A stretch of 64,000 nucleotides of DNA from Candidatus Bathyarchaeia archaeon (GTDB taxonomy: Archaea; Thermoproteota; Bathyarchaeia; Bathyarchaeales; Bathycorpusculaceae): NCBI GenBank assembly GCA_041447175.1, contig CP166960.1, forward strand, positions 1,566,519 to 1,630,518. The letters are read 5' to 3'. The notes beneath the pieces are model-generated. The model saw only the letters and a program-made list of their open reading frames with translations. It was not told the origin of the DNA and did not search any database. This document shows positions 10,846 through 18,776 of this stretch, in pieces. A program made the translations under genes and the position numbers. Position 1 is the stretch's first letter. Every line of letters begins with the position of its first letter.

Positions 10846-10936
10846 GGCGCTCTACAGTTAGGTGGTCCTATCACCGGACTTCAAATCCGGGGAGTCCGAT
10901 AAGGACTCGGGGTTCAATTCCCCTTGGGCGCCGCCA
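10846..10936 (+). tRNA. tRNA-Sec (anticodon UCA)
   Basis: 91 nt including encoded CCA. The anticodon stem CCGGA/TCCGG encloses a 7-nt loop with TCA at 10881-10883, reading UGA. The extra arm is long (GAGTCC/GGACTC with loop GATAA). The T stem has only 4 bp (GGGG/CCCC, loop TTCAATT) and the acceptor has 9 positions, with one T-T mismatch at the eighth. That 9/4 fold is the archaeal/eukaryal tRNA-Sec form. The D arm is long with a 4-nt loop TGGT and one mismatch. G2-C71 and C3-G70 type pairs, known as archaeal PSTK identity elements, are present, and the discriminator is G. A suppressor or serine tRNA would not normally have this combination. Confidence 0.93.
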
Positions 10937-10976: not shown

Positions 10977-11918
10977 TCACTTTTCGTTCCCCAACTGGCA
11001 AACCGCTTGCGGGGGATTAGGATGCACGACGGTTTGTTCTTGGCAGAAATCCCAGAAAAGCTCCGCGGCTTTAAGCAGGCTTCGTTTAGGTCGGAGCAGG
11101 TAAAGTTTGCGTGTGGTGTTTACGTCTTCCAGTTTTTTTATCAAAACCAGCCCTGCGGCTTGAGCTTTGCGGGAAGCAATGGATGAGACAAGACTTATGC
11201 CTCTGCCCTCCGAAACCGCGGTTATGACTGATTCGGTGCTGCCAAGCTCAAGGGTAGTTTTCAACCCAGCAGGAGAGAAACCGGCGGATTCAATGATGCG
11301 CTCGATTTCGGCGCGGGTTCCCGAGGTTTCCTCACGGTTGATGTAGGGATAACGCAGAAGTTCTGCAAGTTTGACTGATTCACGTTTAGAAAGCTCATGC
11401 CCACAAGGAACGATAAGCACGAGTTCTTCTTGACCGATTTCGATGGCTTCAAATTTCTCGGTGTATCCCCGTATGCTACCCGTCGCAGCAAAGTCCACAT
11501 CGTTTGCCTGCAGACTCAAAAGGCTGGAAACGCTGTCTTCGGTTTTTATTTTGAATTTTACGTCAGGATTCCTTTTTTGGAACTCAGCAATTAAGCTCGG
11601 AAGCAGATGCTCTTCTGGGATGGTGCTGGCGGCAATTTTCAGAACCCCTGAAAGTTTATGCTTGGTTGAAGAGATTGAGGCTTTGGCGGCGTCTAAGTCT
11701 TGGAAGATTTTTTGGGCGGTTTCTTTTAGGATGAGTCCTGCTTCGGTGACTTCGACGCCTTTTACGGTGCGTTTGAGCAGTTGAGCATCAAAGTATTCTT
11801 CCAAGGCGGCGATATGGTTGCTGACTGTTCCTTGACTGGTTCGGAGTTCTTTGGCGGCAATTGAAAAGCTGCCAATTCGAGCTACTGCAAGGAAAGTTTT
11901 CAAATAATCCAATCGCAT
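10977..11918 (-). CDS. LysR-family regulator, probably selenium-associated
   Basis: About 313 residues from the ATG at 11918. An N-terminal winged helix (MRLDYLKTFLAVARIGSF...AAKELRTSQGTVSNHIAALE) is followed by a type-2 periplasmic-binding-like effector domain (VLKIAASTIPEEHLLPSLIAEF...). It is divergent from the yedE gene and would sit over the shared promoter. Comparative work on prokaryotic selenium genes described a LysR regulator near yedE/yedF, and this position matches. Control of the selenium genes, perhaps in response to a selenium or sulfur ligand, is therefore a reasoned inference. LysR proteins are uncommon in archaea, which suggests acquisition from bacteria. Confidence 0.88.
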   Translation of the reverse strand: MRLDYLKTFLAVARIGSFSIAAKELRTSQGTVSNHIAALEEYFDAQLLKRTVKGVEVTEAGLILKETAQKIFQDLDAAKASISSTKHKLSGVLKIAASTIPEEHLLPSLIAEFQKRNPDVKFKIKTEDSVSSLLSLQANDVDFAATGSIRGYTEKFEAIEIGQEELVLIVPCGHELSKRESVKLAELLRYPYINREETSGTRAEIERIIESAGFSPAGLKTTLELGSTESVITAVSEGRGISLVSSIASRKAQAAGLVLIKKLEDVNTTRKLYLLRPKRSLLKAAELFWDFCQEQTVVHPNPPQAVCQLGNEK

Positions 11919-11967
11919 CGTTCTGGCTTCCAACTCAATGTAAGTTACTTATTTTTTGGGTAACCGC

Positions 11968-12137: not shown

Positions 12138-12635
12138 ATCCAAAAAAACATACGCATAACGATAGTAATCGCTGGGTTAATCACCGGCGCTTTAGCAGCC
12201 ATAACTCAAGTTTCTTTCAACGTCCTACCACCATACGCATACGGCATATGCGTTGCATGCCACGCCAGAGACTTAATCAACTGGCTCGTCAACCAGGCCA
12301 CCGGCTGGAGCCTATCAGTTGCCCCTGTATCCGTTGTGGCACCCGTGTTAACTGTTGTGGGACTAGTTGTGGGTGCATACGTAGCATCAGCGCGTAACCA
12401 CGAGTTTAAACTCAAAACCACCAAACACCCCCTCACCTCCTTCATCTACGGCTTTCTCGTGATGGTGTTCGCCCTAATTCTGGGTGCTTGCCCACTCCGA
12501 ACCATCCTGCGCATCGCCTACGGTGACATAATCGCGGTGATTGGTTTTGCGGCCATAGCCCTTGGAGTGTTCATAGGCGCCGAACTCATCAAATGGAGCG
12601 CCCAACGGGGACTAAACAGCAAAGGAGGCATCTAA
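12138..12635 (+). CDS. yedE: YedE/YeeE-type selenium transporter, N-terminal half; start codon unresolved
   Basis: The frame encodes about 165 residues with four hydrophobic helices and the family motifs YGICVACHARDL and LGACPLRTILRIAYGD, whose cysteines are thought to handle Se or S anions. YedE is normally one protein; here it is two abutting genes. No ATG, GTG or TTG precedes the conserved YGICVACHARD segment in frame. The frame reads ATG-TAG-GAA-ATC from 12129, so the options are an ATC start at 12138 (GGGG 9 nt upstream), an amber codon read through after a real ATG, or a base error. A GTG at 12336 would remove the first conserved cysteine motif and is unlikely. Confidence 0.75.
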   Translation: MQKNIRITIVIAGLITGALAAITQVSFNVLPPYAYGICVACHARDLINWLVNQATGWSLSVAPVSVVAPVLTVVGLVVGAYVASARNHEFKLKTTKHPLTSFIYGFLVMVFALILGACPLRTILRIAYGDIIAVIGFAAIALGVFIGAELIKWSAQRGLNSKGGI

Positions 12636-13115
12636 ATGGGGCAAACTGAAATTCTGTTAGCAACTTTAGTGGCAGGATTAATCGTGGGTTACGTTGCTCA
12701 ACGAGCACGCATGTGCTTTGTCGGAGGAATCCGCGACTACATACTCGTAAAAGACACACACCTACTCAAAGCTCCACTTGCCTTCCTAGTCGGAGCCGTA
12801 GTCATCTTTGGAGTTGCCTCCCTGTTCTCCAGCGCCCCCCTCTGGCCCTGGGCAGTAAACAAAGCTTTGCTTCCAATTCCCGGCGCACCCCTCTCAAGCG
12901 CAGCCACCACACCCCTGTGGGTAAACGTGTTCCTTGCAGTTCTCGGCGGCGCAGGATTAGGATTGTTTTCGGTTTTGGCTGGAGGCTGCCCGCTTAGGCA
13001 ACATGTGATGGCTTCAGAAGGGGACAAAAGCTCAATGTCGTATTTGGCGGGTTTCTACGTGGGCGCCGTCGTGTTCACCGCGGTAATCTTGCCAATAATA
13101 ATTGACGTGTTATAG
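12636..13115 (+). CDS. yedE: YedE/YeeE-type selenium transporter, C-terminal half
   Basis: 159 residues. RARMCFVGGIRDYIL and LAGGCPLRQHVMASEGDKS are the second set of YedE signatures, with four to five membrane helices around them. The ATG follows the stop of the N-terminal half with no gap, and a GGAGG lies 7 nt upstream, so the two halves are made separately and presumably assemble. Fused YedE proteins associated with selenium metabolism are thought to import a selenium species. Sulfur import (thiosulfate or sulfite, as in YeeE) is the alternative, but tRNA-Sec, selD and the YedF-like genes favour selenium. Confidence 0.85.
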   Translation: MGQTEILLATLVAGLIVGYVAQRARMCFVGGIRDYILVKDTHLLKAPLAFLVGAVVIFGVASLFSSAPLWPWAVNKALLPIPGAPLSSAATTPLWVNVFLAVLGGAGLGLFSVLAGGCPLRQHVMASEGDKSSMSYLAGFYVGAVVFTAVILPIIIDVL

Positions 13116-13372: not shown

Positions 13373-13894
13373 TTGAATAGAGACAAAAGGGAACGCGCAA
13401 TTCTGTTGCTTAGAGATGTCCGCGAAAGCATAAAAGCTGAGCGGATACTCAAAGCAAAAAACTACGACGTAAAAGTAGTGGCGCCCCCAGTCGAAGTGAG
13501 AATCGGATGCGACTTAGCCATCGAAATCAACCTGGTGGACAGCTTTGGGATTGAAAACCTGCTAAAAGATAACCACATCAACCCAATCAAAGTGGTTCCG
13601 TTAAGCAACTTGGAGCTTAGGCCACTGGAAATCATCAAAGAAGTCGACCTTGATGACTACTTGATGGTGAAAGCGGGTCACATGAAGTTGACCTTCGAGA
13701 AGCAAAACGGCAAAATCGTAAACGTTTCAGGAGGCGGATGCCCCGACATCCCCTTTCTGGCGTTAAGCATGGTCGGTAAAACCTTGGAGGAAACACAGCG
13801 ACCTGACGAGTTGGGCTATACTCTTTGCGCGTTTATGCTGGAGAAAGCCTACGAAAGAGCACTACAAACCTACAGGAAGACCCAACCATGTTAG
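13373..13894 (+). CDS. DUF3343-like putative Se/S carrier protein with extra C-terminal domain
   Basis: 173 residues from a TTG with GGAG 8 nt upstream. The first 50 or so residues (AILLLRDVRESIKAERILK...VVAPPVEVRIGCDLAIEI) follow the DUF3343 pattern, including the single cysteine in a GC-x-L-A context. That family is described as putative Se/S carrier-like. The rest contains SGGGCPDIPFLALSMVGKTLEET and a helical end with another Cys. Its stop overlaps the next start by 7 nt, so it is coupled to the kinase-like gene. Role: probably thiol handling of Se or S between YedE/TusA and later enzymes, inferred from the domain and the neighbours. Confidence 0.7.
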   Translation: MNRDKRERAILLLRDVRESIKAERILKAKNYDVKVVAPPVEVRIGCDLAIEINLVDSFGIENLLKDNHINPIKVVPLSNLELRPLEIIKEVDLDDYLMVKAGHMKLTFEKQNGKIVNVSGGGCPDIPFLALSMVGKTLEETQRPDELGYTLCAFMLEKAYERALQTYRKTQPC

Positions 13895-14878: not shown

Positions 14879-15229
14879 ATGGTTTCGTTCACAGTGTTGA
14901 TTAATGAAGCACCTATTGCTAAAGAACGCGCCTTCACTGCCCTCAGGTATGCAACCACCTGCGCACTTGAAGGACACGAAGTGAAAGTTTTCTTGATGGA
15001 AAACGGCGTGTACGTCGCAAAGAAAGGTCAAAACCCCTCCTCCGACGCACCCAACCTTATGGTTTACCTTGAAGAACTCCTAAAAAGCAATGTAGAAGTC
15101 AAAGCCTGTGTGGTCTGCTGCCAAGCTCGAGGATTAACCGAAAACGACCTAATTCCAGGCGTCAAAATCGCATCCATGCATGAACTCGTCGAATGGACCG
15201 CAACAACCGACAAAACCATAGTGTTCTAG
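14879..15229 (+). CDS. DsrE-family protein (YedF C-domain-like)
   Basis: 116 residues. The DsrE/TusD fold is indicated by the N-terminal strand VSFTVLINEAPIAKERAFTA, HEVKVFLMENGVY and the cysteine motif KACVVCCQARGL. Two adjacent cysteines (residues about 80-81) are candidate carrier sites. In bacterial YedF a TusA domain is fused to a DsrE domain; here they are two genes overlapping by one base (TAGTG) in reverse order. This supports a role in handing on reduced selenium or sulfur. A purely sulfur-relay role cannot be excluded. Confidence 0.85.
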   Translation: MVSFTVLINEAPIAKERAFTALRYATTCALEGHEVKVFLMENGVYVAKKGQNPSSDAPNLMVYLEELLKSNVEVKACVVCCQARGLTENDLIPGVKIASMHELVEWTATTDKTIVF

Positions 15230-15462
15230 TGATTGATTTGGAAAACGAGAAACTAGACGTGAAGGGCAAAGTTTGCCCCATGCCCATCCTTTTAATCAAG
15301 CGCAAACTGGAAACGGTGCAGACGGGACAAATTCTGGAAGTCAACGGCGATTGTGGTCCAGCGTTTGATAACGTGCAGCGGTGGGCAAAAAACGCGGGAC
15401 ACGAGATTGTTGAAGCCACCAAAAACGGCGTTGAGTTCAACATTAAGATAAAAAAGCAGTAA
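15229..15462 (+). CDS. TusA-like protein (YedF N-domain-like)
   Basis: About 77 residues from the GTG at 15229, which overlaps the DsrE stop. The CPMPILLIKRKLE motif after LDVKGK is the classic TusA helix start with the carrier Cys. It pairs with the preceding DsrE protein as a split YedF. An upstream ATG at 15193 in the same frame would add 12 residues inside the DsrE gene and is less likely. Confidence 0.88.
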   Translation: MIDLENEKLDVKGKVCPMPILLIKRKLETVQTGQILEVNGDCGPAFDNVQRWAKNAGHEIVEATKNGVEFNIKIKKQ

Positions 15463-15609: not shown

Positions 15610-16902
15610 ATGGCACAAAAATACGTTGATTTATGGACAAGCCTAGGAATTGACCTAGAAAAACACAACCAGCTTCTAACAGTTTTACCCCAAATCTACA
15701 CCGACCTGGTTTTATCCCAGAAAAACAGACCCCAAAAAATGGATTACTTTGACTTTGTCATCTCCGAAATCCATGGGCTCCGAGTAGATGAACTGGATAA
15801 ACTCCGCAAAGAAGGCAACAAAATCATCGGCGCCTTCTGCCTCTACGCGCCTGAAGAGCTTGCATACGCAGCAAACGCCACCATGGTCGGCTTATGCGGA
15901 GGCGCAGACTTCTCCATCCCCGACGCTGAAGCAACCCTGCCCCGAAACATGTGCCCCCTCATCAAATCATTCTACGGCTTCAAAGTGGGCTTAACTTGCC
16001 CCTACTTCCAATGCTGCGACATGCTAGTCGGCGAAACCACCTGCGACGGCAAAAAGAAAGTCTACGAACTCCTCAACGAGCACACCCCAACCTACGTCAT
16101 TGAAGTCCCCCACAAACCCGACACCCCCCAAGGCAGAAGCCTCTGGCTTAAAGAGCTGGAAGAATTCAAAACCCAACTTGAAAAACTAACAGGCAACACC
16201 ATAACCGCTAAAAAACTCAAAGCCTCCATTGAACTCATAAACAACAAACGCAAAGCCCTCAAACGCCTCGCCGAACTCCGCAAAGCAACTCCCGCACCCA
16301 TCAGCGGCTTAGACGCCCTCATCGTGACCCAAATCGGCTTCTACGACGACGTGAAACGGTTCACCACCAAAGTCAACGAACTCTGCGACGAACTAGAGGA
16401 ACGCGTGAAAAACGGCGTCGGCGTCACCGACAAAAACGCGCCCCGACTCATGGTTTCAGGCTGCCCCATGGCAGTTCCCAACTGGAAGCTACCCAGCATA
16501 GCCGAATCCGCAGGCGCCTCCATAGTTGTCGAGGAAAGCTGCGTTGGAAGCCGATACTTCATGGACATGGTAGAACCCAAAGGTGAAAGCCTCAACGACC
16601 TGCTCGAAGCCTTGGTGGAGAAATACGCCAAGATTCCCTGCGCATGCTTCACCCCCAACGACGCCCGTATAGAAAGCGTAAACCAGTTAGCCAAGGACTT
16701 CAAAGTCGACGGTGTAGTCTACTACACGCTGCAGTTCTGCCACAGCTACAACGTTGAAGCCGTCAAAGTCGGCAAAGCACTCAAAGGCGAAGACGTACCG
16801 ATGCTGAAAATCGAAACCGACTACACAATGGAAGACGCCGAGCAAATCCGCACAAGACTAGAAGCCTTCCTTGAAATGATCAAAGGCAAACGGAAACAGT
16901 AA
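15610..16902 (+). CDS. Double-cubane-cluster reductase (HgdB/BcrC-like superfamily)
   Basis: 430 residues. It belongs to the 2-hydroxyacyl-CoA dehydratase/benzoyl-CoA reductase superfamily, but as a single subunit of the double-cubane cluster protein type. Cysteine motifs include MCPLIKSFYG, LTCPYFQCCDML, CDGKKK, SGCPMAVPNWK, EESCVGSRYF and QFCHSY. Such proteins receive electrons from an ATP-driven activase (next gene, 56 nt on) and reach very low potentials to reduce small molecules such as acetylene in vitro. Its natural substrate is unknown. The placement between YedF-like genes and selD suggests a low-potential reduction linked to selenium, which is only inference. Confidence 0.88.
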   Translation: MAQKYVDLWTSLGIDLEKHNQLLTVLPQIYTDLVLSQKNRPQKMDYFDFVISEIHGLRVDELDKLRKEGNKIIGAFCLYAPEELAYAANATMVGLCGGADFSIPDAEATLPRNMCPLIKSFYGFKVGLTCPYFQCCDMLVGETTCDGKKKVYELLNEHTPTYVIEVPHKPDTPQGRSLWLKELEEFKTQLEKLTGNTITAKKLKASIELINNKRKALKRLAELRKATPAPISGLDALIVTQIGFYDDVKRFTTKVNELCDELEERVKNGVGVTDKNAPRLMVSGCPMAVPNWKLPSIAESAGASIVVEESCVGSRYFMDMVEPKGESLNDLLEALVEKYAKIPCACFTPNDARIESVNQLAKDFKVDGVVYYTLQFCHSYNVEAVKVGKALKGEDVPMLKIETDYTMEDAEQIRTRLEAFLEMIKGKRKQ

Positions 16903-16958
16903 ATTCCCTCCTTTCTCCTTTTGTTTACTAAAATTAACTTCGGGTAGGTTGAATTTAT

Positions 16959-17732
16959 TTGGCTGTTGCAGGTGTTGATGCAGGTTCAGCGGCAACTAAA
17001 GCCGTAATTATCCAAAACCAAAAAGCAATCGCGCACGCAATTGTGCCCACAGGAGCCAACGGCAAAAACGCATCCACAAACGCCTTGGAAAAGGCGTTGG
17101 CTGCCGCAAATCTCACCCGCACAGACTTGCAGAACATCGTTTCAACAGGGTATGGAAGAAGAAACGTCGGGTTCGCCGAAAACGCAGTAACCGAAATCAC
17201 CGCTCACGCCAAAGGCGCCAAAACCCTGTTCCCAGCAGCAATGACCATAATTGACATCGGCGGGCAAGACAGCAAAGTCATCAGCCTTGACGAAGAGGGA
17301 CGCATAAACAATTTTGTAATGAACGACAAATGCGCCGCGGGCACAGGCAGATTCCTCGAAGTCATGGCGCGAACCATGGAGGTTTCTCTGCAAGATTTAG
17401 GCGAATTATCCATGTCTGCTGAGAAGCCCGCGAAAATCAGCAGCATGTGCACCGTGTTTGCCGAATCCGAAGTGGTCTCGCTCGTTGCCCAGGGCGAAAA
17501 ACGTGAAGCCATCATCGCGGGGCTGCATGAAGCCATATCTAAACGCATCTCGGGCATGGTGAAACAGGTGGGACTGCGACGCGAAGTAGTTTTCACAGGC
17601 GGCGTCGCCAAAAACGTGGGCATGAAAGCCAGTTTAGAGCGGGTTTTGGGTTTAAACATTAATATCCCCGTGGAGCCTCAGATTATAGGTGCCTTTGGAG
17701 CAGCACTAATCGCTGAAGAAGGCATCAACTAG
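16959..17732 (+). CDS. ATP-dependent activase (HgdC/BadG-type ASKHA ATPase)
   Basis: 257 residues from a TTG. The ASKHA phosphate-1 motif VAGVDAGSAATKAVII opens the protein. The cluster-binding cysteines lie in DKCAAGTGRFLE and SSMCTVFAESEVVSL, which form the shared [4Fe-4S] cluster of the homodimer. GGVAKNVGMKASLE is the adenosine motif. It would hydrolyse ATP to drive single electrons onto the double-cubane reductase encoded just upstream. It ends 24 nt before selD, so the three genes appear to be one transcript. Confidence 0.92.
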   Translation: MAVAGVDAGSAATKAVIIQNQKAIAHAIVPTGANGKNASTNALEKALAAANLTRTDLQNIVSTGYGRRNVGFAENAVTEITAHAKGAKTLFPAAMTIIDIGGQDSKVISLDEEGRINNFVMNDKCAAGTGRFLEVMARTMEVSLQDLGELSMSAEKPAKISSMCTVFAESEVVSLVAQGEKREAIIAGLHEAISKRISGMVKQVGLRREVVFTGGVAKNVGMKASLERVLGLNINIPVEPQIIGAFGAALIAEEGIN

Positions 17733-17756: not shown

Positions 17757-18776
17757 ATGGAGTACAGGCTCACCAAAGTTGTGCCAGTGCACGGATGAAG
17801 CTGCAAGCTCCCACAGTACCAGCTGGATAAACTTCTCAACCAGGCAGGCGTCACGGTTACGCCCTCCGATGAGTTGTTAGCTGGACCGTGGGAGAACGCC
17901 AGCGCCGTACAGGTATCCGAAGACGTTGCGGTACTCAACACGCTGGACTTTTTCACCCCCATCGTTGACGAGCCAGAAACACAAGGCAGAATCGCCGCCA
18001 GCAACGTCACCAGCGACATCTACGCCATGGCGGTCCCTAACATCGTAACGGTGCTGTCGATTATGGCGTTTCCCGAAAACATGCCCCAAGAACTCGCCGT
18101 GGGTATGCTTAAAGGGTTTGCAGATTTCTGCCGCGAAATGGATGCTCCTCTCATCGGCGGACACACCATCCGAAACCCATGGCCCATAATCGGAGGCGCA
18201 GCCACCGGCGTAAGCCACCCCAAAAAACTCAAGTACACCCGAGGCGCAAAACCCGGCGACGTACTCGTTTTAACTAAGCCCTTAGGCGTCCAACCTGCGA
18301 TGGCAGCGTACCGCATGCGTAAAGAAGAGGAAGGCAGAGAATTCCTCCAAGAAGTCCCCGCGGACTTGGTTGAAGCAGCGGTTTCGGGCGCCGTCAAATT
18401 GATGACGACTTCCAACAAGCCCGTTGCTGAGGTGATGCAGCAACTTCCCGTACACGCCGCCACCGACATCACAGGCTTTGGCTTAAAGGGGCACGCGGAG
18501 AACATGGCAAAACTGGGCGGCGTGAACATCTTCTTTGACCAGCTGGCGGTGGTTCGGGGGACGCCTGCGTTGGCAGATTTGCTTGGGTATTCGTTGTTTA
18601 CGGGGGAGGCGGCGGAAACCGCTGGGGGCATGTTGCTTTCGGTGGCAAAGAAGGATTTGGCGGATTTGCTAGATGCGTTAGAGAAGCGGAACGTGGACCA
18701 CGTTGAGGTGGGCTACGTGACAGCTGGCGAGGGCATCGTAACGGTTGCCAAGGACGCAAAAATCGTCGAAATCTAA
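17757..18776 (+). CDS. selD: Selenophosphate synthetase SelD, Sec-containing (in-frame UGA)
   Basis: 339 residues if the TGA at 17796-17798 is read as Sec14. The frame starts at ATG 17757 and reads MEYRLTKVVPVHG-U-SCKLPQY. The UGA falls exactly where SelD has its catalytic Cys or Sec, in the pattern G-C/U-x-C-K, with the essential Lys17. Downstream, NTLDFFTPIVDEPETQGRIA, SDIYAM and LIGGHTIR are SelD/PurM signatures, and the frame is otherwise open to 18776. A start after the UGA (17874) would lose the catalytic loop. The enzyme makes selenophosphate from selenide and ATP. The nearby tRNA-Sec supplies the decoding logic. No canonical archaeal SECIS was confidently found in the 3' region. Confidence 0.93.

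Follow-up and report, generated by a model that had tools for sequence, protein, structure and literature searches.

A UGA-containing selD gene of a Bathyarchaeia archaeon and candidate selenocysteine insertion signals within coding regions

Results

The selenium island and its selD gene

The stretch of DNA analysed here (the window; 64,000 nucleotides from the genome of a Candidatus Bathyarchaeia archaeon, denoted G000) carries a selenium island that closes with selD. The following features were assigned:

10846..10932, + strand: tRNASec, anticodon UCA, one of two in the genome (ARAGORN; Rfam RF01852, 68 bits, gathering score 47)
10977..11933, - strand: selenium-metabolism LysR regulator (NF040786 LysR_Sec_metab, 250.4 bits, cut-off 250)
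12336..12635, + strand: N-terminal half of a YedE-type selenium transporter, start uncertain with no clear ATG (TIGR04112, partial, below cut-off)
12636..13115, + strand: C-terminal half of the YedE-type selenium transporter (TIGR04112, partial, below cut-off; Pfam Sulf_transp)
13373..13894, + strand: putative Se/S carrier protein (PF11823, 49.2 bits, cut-off 25)
14879..15229, + strand: TusD/DsrE-like protein (TIGR03012, below cut-off)
15193..15462, + strand: TusA/YedF-like sulfur/selenium carrier (NF008242 and TIGR03527, below cut-offs)
15610..16902, + strand: double-cubane-cluster reductase, HgdB family (NF040772, 508.5 bits, cut-off 350)
16959..17732, + strand: ATP-dependent activase of the double-cubane reductase, BadF/HgdC family (TIGR00241, 287 bits, cut-off 125; PF01869)
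17757..18776, + strand: selD, selenide,water dikinase, 339 residues with one Sec (UGA) at residue 14 (NF010705, 342.7 bits, cut-off 291; TIGR00476, 256.3 bits, cut-off 125)
17796..17798, + strand: in-frame TGA at the catalytic position, HG-U-SCKLP, read as selenocysteine (TGA also in G059, G060, G061, G087, G186, G192 and G193; TGC or TGT in other Bathyarchaeia)

An earlier sequence-only reading had proposed that the ATG at 17757 leads into the loop HG-UGA-SCKLP with its downstream lysine. Both the DNA, in which the codons around the UGA run GGA-TGA-AGC-TGC-AAG-CTC-CCA, and its translation bear this out. The frame proved to be open on both sides of a single UGA, as that reading had also stated: between the ATG start and the TAA stop at 18774-18776 it is interrupted only by the TGA of codon 14. 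The gene end at 18776 lies well past the position 17873 that had been given. With the UGA taken as Sec, the protein starts MEYRLTKVVPVHG-U-SCKLPQYQL; its alignment to NF010705 begins at residue 2, and its domains are AIRS and AIRS_C. The assignment as SelD is confirmed by two family models scoring above their curated cut-offs, NF010705 and TIGR00476. The expectation that gene callers would begin at 17874 was likewise correct, the mechanical ORF caller choosing the TTG at this position and reporting a product of 300 residues.

The YedE-type transporter is split into two ORFs (12336-13115), and the genes for the double-cubane reductase and its activase (15610-17732) lie directly upstream of selD. 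Relatives with a Cys-containing SelD, among them G026, G019 and G038 (loci L011, L012 and L017), retain much of the island, namely the genes for LysR, TusD, TusA, the double-cubane reductase and SelD. Retention of the double-cubane reductase in these relatives suggests a role of this enzyme in selenium or sulfur metabolism. Where tested, they contained no tRNASec above the cut-off; their SelD therefore probably serves another selenium use, such as selenouridine.

UGA and Cys codons alternate at the catalytic position

Orthologues of SelD (E<=1e-30) were found in 32 of the 257 Bathyarchaeia genomes. The catalytic codon is TGA in all four same-genus genomes that have selD (G000, G059, G060 and G061), the three remaining genomes of the genus having no orthologue by score. 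Four distant Bathyarchaeia (G087, G186, G192 and G193), with SelDs 40-45% identical, also carry the UGA. The other orthologues have no stop at this codon, which is TGC or TGT in those inspected. A short SelD fragment in G035 (query residues 205-327) contains a TGA too, but this one does not correspond to the catalytic codon. In an alignment of Cys- and UGA-containing SelDs, the UGA occupies the codon of the catalytic Cys of the homologues, and the flanking codons are conserved on both sides. Recurrence of TGA at the same codon in SelDs of the genus and in divergent ones means that neither chance nor a sequencing slip accounts for it.

Genes of the selenocysteine machinery

The genome G000 is a single contig of 2,733,033 bases (2.73 Mb), estimated to be 97% complete. 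Its second tRNASec gene, at 2511500-2511586, is followed by SepSecS on the opposite strand and by a PSTK-aSelB fusion, a single ORF of 732 residues in which the PSTK part precedes aSelB. The PSTK part matches TIGR03574 with 146.6 bits (E=8.9e-43), under the cut-off of 290.5, and is fused to aSelB. In the second part, residues 277-721 align, over the full length of aSelB and with domain IV included, to residues 20-473 of the Methanococcus SelB structure 4ac9, and PF21440 (aSelB_III) is matched. A domain search of the PSTK-aSelB fusions recognised no bacterial SelB C-terminal (SECIS-binding) domain, and the fusion was the only SelB-family match above cut-off. G000 thus possesses tRNASec, PSTK, SepSecS, aSelB and SelD, the archaeal Sec-decoding trait. 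Since all of this machinery lies on the contig of the window, contamination is no explanation.

A test of 11 genomes gave tRNASec matches over the gathering score solely in the four same-genus genomes with UGA-containing SelD and HdrA. In G087 and G192, the PSTK-aSelB fusion and SepSecS adjoin selD. The archaeal genome G000 has a tRNASec gene in its selenium island as well as one next to SepSecS and PSTK-aSelB. G061 likewise carries two that exceed the Rfam cut-off, and a second one was predicted in G060 by ARAGORN. Near selD of G087 (C16:18008-18117, locus L087) there is a tRNASec-like match of 44 bits that is longer than normal, at 110 nt; it is perhaps an intron-containing tRNASec, and ARAGORN called no tRNA in this stretch. 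In G192 (L119 3478-4278), FdhD-like and MobA-like genes lie beside SepSecS and PSTK-aSelB, and no UGA-containing FdhA was found.

The 300-residue ORF from TTG 17874 would be in keeping with a UGA that is a true stop or is read through by a near-cognate tRNA, in a selD that is decaying or has a dispensable N-terminus. We regard this as very improbable, because the UGA stands at the catalytic codon in eight genomes, alternates there with Cys and has an intact frame and conserved codons before and after it, and because the genome encodes tRNASec, PSTK, SepSecS and aSelB.

A second selenoprotein gene with two UGA codons

About 3-5 kb upstream of the second tRNASec gene lies a gene for an HdrA-MvhD fusion with two in-frame TGAs, in the contexts LDCSI-U-IEGP and FMCNW-U-GYAGAD (codons 212 and 682). 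It is one of a pair:

L026 4071-6590: HdrA-MvhD, Sec/Sec copy
L026 6848-9301: HdrA-MvhD, Cys/Cys copy

This arrangement recurs in G059, G060 and G061, the frame of the Cys copy of G060 being apparently broken in the MvhD part. Same-genus genomes without tRNASec above the cut-off have only the Cys copy. The Sec copies of the four genomes cluster as a single clade that lies outside the genus's Cys copies. Methanogens switch between Sec and Cys isoenzymes in dependence on selenium, and the HdrA-MvhD pair invites comparison with this behaviour. In the matched stretches of the [NiFe] hydrogenase large subunits of G000 and of FdhA-like proteins, no internal UGA was seen. When the window and related loci were compared with stops read through, out-of-frame shadow matches swamped the outcome.

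Taken together, the UGA codon shared by relatives, the Sec machinery in the genome and an HdrA-MvhD gene with two further UGAs make the gene of the window, as judged from sequence, a well supported Sec-containing SelD. The proposal that the UGA encodes Sec at the catalytic residue, made originally from the window alone, has therefore gained support from the alternation with Cys among orthologues, from tRNASec, SepSecS and PSTK-aSelB, from the second selenoprotein gene and, among the genomes tested, from the restriction of above-cut-off tRNASec to those of the genus with UGA in SelD and HdrA. Sec would accordingly be inserted at this codon.

Synonymous codons are nearly frozen downstream of the UGAs

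Synonymous variation and RNA structure were analysed in eight genomes, of which four are closely related. In selD, codons +1 to +13 after the UGA varied synonymously at 2/13 sites compared with 140/202 elsewhere in the gene (p=1.6e-4). The stretches that follow the UGAs of HdrA (3/13 vs 372/626 elsewhere; p=0.01) and MvhD (3/16 vs 372/623; p=1.2e-3) behaved in the same way, as did those of the distant SelDs (5/11 vs 137/151; p=5e-4). The homologous stretches of the Cys paralogues showed no freezing (p=0.63 and 0.98). When HdrA-MvhD of G000 was scanned blind, codons 213 and 685, right behind the UGAs at codons 212 and 682, were the starts of the two lowest among 206 scan windows, and in selD of G000, G059, G087 and G192 the scan window at the UGA was the lowest of the 102-106 along the gene (102 in G000). 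In single genomes, low-z scan windows also occur close to the homologous site of some Cys paralogues.

The frozen stretches contain predicted hairpins. In HdrA, GG.CCU-A-GGAUGG pairs with CCAUCC-U.AGG-UC around a loop that holds AGGUAUUA; three genomes have the identical hairpin and the fourth a slightly different one. The MvhD hairpin is formed by GCCGGC and GCCGGC with an inner CC-GAGCG-GG, and that of the distant SelDs by GCUCC.C.UAGGC-GAGA-GCUUA.U.GGAGC. The published bacterial model, bSECIS (PMC13188914, Fig 2A), has a loop of 3-9 nt with G in one of the first two positions, a distance of 16-37 nt from the UGA and an MFE <= -7.5. All 12 of these sites (8/8 in HdrA and MvhD, 4/4 in the distant SelDs) lie within its loop, spacing and energy limits, with its contiguous 4-bp upper stem left unenforced and spanning 1-5 bp in the passing sites. 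Of the synonymous recodings of these 12 hairpins, 97.5-100% are less stable than the native sequence. In the synonymous-null scan, the known SECIS of E. coli fdnG and fdhF did not stand out (z +1.6 and +1.1); the scan therefore marks unusual structure and not SECIS identity, and it was not used as a SECIS detector. No base pair had changed on both sides in the genomes compared, so that covariation gives no proof of the structures.

A predicted long-range stem in selD of the window

The four same-genus selD genes had no qualifying compact bSECIS hairpin. Their frozen stretch takes part in a predicted stem of about 100 nt:

17800..17903, + strand: candidate intragenic SECIS of selD, long-range stem (helices 17800-17803/17900-17903, 17808-17814/17888-17894, 17819-17824/17879-17884 and 17830-17832/17876-17878)

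The partner of CUCCCAC in this stem, GUGGGAG, lies 73 nt downstream; further pairings are CCAGCU/AGCUGG and GCUG/CAGC. Across the four genomes, 79 of the 80 pair cells hold standard pairs, compared with 24-60% when the partners are slid, and the alifold energy is -40.2 kcal/mol (z -5.3). Synonymous sites in the arms are variable at 4/22 positions vs 138/193 elsewhere (p=1.6e-6).

Freezing might also stem from recent common ancestry, gene conversion or limits on codon usage near the start, with Sec-SelD correct and no RNA signal present. The closeness of the four genomes would fit such an origin, as would selD codons 1-12 before the UGA, which are also identical in three of the four. Nevertheless, we consider this explanation improbable. 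The effect is seen again in the interior of HdrA-MvhD, at codons 213 and 683, far from a start; elsewhere in each gene, ~60-70% of the comparable sites are variable. The selD arms are frozen and codons +14 to +25 between them vary (4/5), and a separate SelD lineage shows the same effect.

Search for SECIS elements in the 3' regions

The 3' regions were searched for the published archaeal and eukaryotic forms. The eaSECIS model with its GAA_A internal bulge matched none of 12 regions. An eSECIS-like element (type I model; GA_[G/A]A core with an upper stem of 7-15 bp) was found in 3 of the 12, no more often than in shuffled sequence. None of the forms searched for occurred above chance. In Rfam, no SECIS family matched even at E<=10. 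The selD 3' regions of the four genomes had no conserved fold by alifold; by reading, a convergent gene in G060 seems to terminate ~42 nt past the selD stop. On the 3' side of Sec hdrA, a weak conserved fold (z -2.8) is present in the four genomes just upstream of the apparent promoter of the next gene.

Between the Sec and Cys hdrA copies, at about L026 6690-6760, there is a partly palindromic block conserved in four genomes, TTTTCCGTGAGAATTRTTG...AAGTAATGTTTATAT, which may serve the Cys copy as operator and promoter or may be a 3' RNA element. The block was considered as a 3' SECIS and set aside: a TATA-like box closely follows it, and same-genus genomes without the Sec copy do not have it, so that a promoter or operator is as likely. 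The window contains no second copy of the block.

These results bear on the possibility that Sec-SelD is correct and the SECIS resides in the 3' (or 5') UTR in a form missed by published models, the coding-region structures having another role. Such a location would agree with all characterised archaeal SECIS, which sit in untranslated regions, with the archaeal character of the Sec machinery and with the weak fold 3' of Sec hdrA. We nonetheless judge it unlikely, given that nothing common follows selD in the four genomes, that in one of them so little space separates its stop from that of the convergent gene, and that eaSECIS matched none of the 12 regions. Moreover, a separate frozen and structured stretch follows every one of the three UGAs, and a single 3' element would not need these.

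Discussion

A selD gene with catalytic Sec and an intragenic signal for each UGA is, with fairly high confidence, the best explanation of the data as a whole. In such a pathway, the PSTK domain of PSTK-aSelB would phosphorylate the serine on tRNASec, SepSecS would convert the phosphorylated serine to Sec using selenophosphate made by SelD itself, and the aSelB part would bring Sec-tRNASec to the ribosome. The UGA would be marked by an RNA structure in the coding sequence directly downstream, one per UGA, which takes the form of a long-range stem of ~100 nt in selD of the window and of compact hairpins in HdrA, MvhD and other Bathyarchaeia SelDs. The coding-region structures would then be the SECIS, and some part of the archaeal apparatus would recognise them; one may speculate that the PSTK-aSelB fusion itself takes part in reading them. 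We consider it likely that Bathyarchaeia place the SECIS inside the coding region right after each UGA, alongside the PSTK-SepSecS-aSelB pathway of archaea and eukaryotes.

If this is true, the rule that ties SECIS position to the domain of life is broken, and the position is not bound to the type of machinery, which bears on the origin of the 3' SECIS. A SECIS reader besides the C-terminal domain of bacterial SelB would have to exist in Bathyarchaeia, possibly within PSTK-aSelB, and these organisms would offer a separate system in which to seek the archaeal SECIS-reading factor. In practice, gene callers overlook Bathyarchaeial selenoproteins, and in-gene signals would go unnoticed when SECIS are sought in 3' regions.

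Comparison with known systems separates a familiar part from one that looks new in the literature covered: the Sec-SelD is of a known kind, and the in-gene signal is the new part. Nearly all archaea that use Sec have UGA-containing selD among their selenoproteins (PMC13188914). Like other Sec-containing SelD/SPS2 proteins, to whose family it belongs, the SelD of the window has Sec in place of the catalytic Cys and the conserved Lys after it; the protein itself is no different, and what differs is the Bathyarchaeia lineage and the apparent place of the signal. Nor is the machinery new, since the PSTK-aSelB fusion has been described in diverse Bathyarchaeota (PMC8762117). SepSecS, tRNASec and the single-ORF fusion are shared with that system, the fusion and SepSecS being present here in G000, G087 and G192. 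Beside the machinery described there stand here two tRNASec genes, Sec SelDs of two lineages and a two-UGA HdrA-MvhD with a Cys paralogue.

In the literature covered, archaeal and eukaryotic SECIS lie in untranslated regions, those of archaea in the 3' UTR or, in one methanogen gene, in the 5' UTR, whereas bacterial SECIS lie in the coding region (PMC13188914). The euryarchaeal SECIS and the eSECIS-like elements of Asgard archaea (PMC11881835, PMC11227280) serve the same task with the same kind of machinery in archaea; they are located in UTRs, and the eaSECIS and eSECIS type I models did not exceed chance in the 3' regions here. From the bacterial system (PMC13188914, Fig 2A), the one described here differs in its archaeal synthesis genes, in an aSelB without the bacterial C-terminal domains and in the long-range stem that takes the place of a compact hairpin in selD of the window. 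With bSECIS, on the other hand, the hairpins of HdrA, MvhD and the distant SelDs agree in loop size, loop G, spacing and energy, and the candidate signals as a whole share the in-gene position straight after the UGA, one per UGA.
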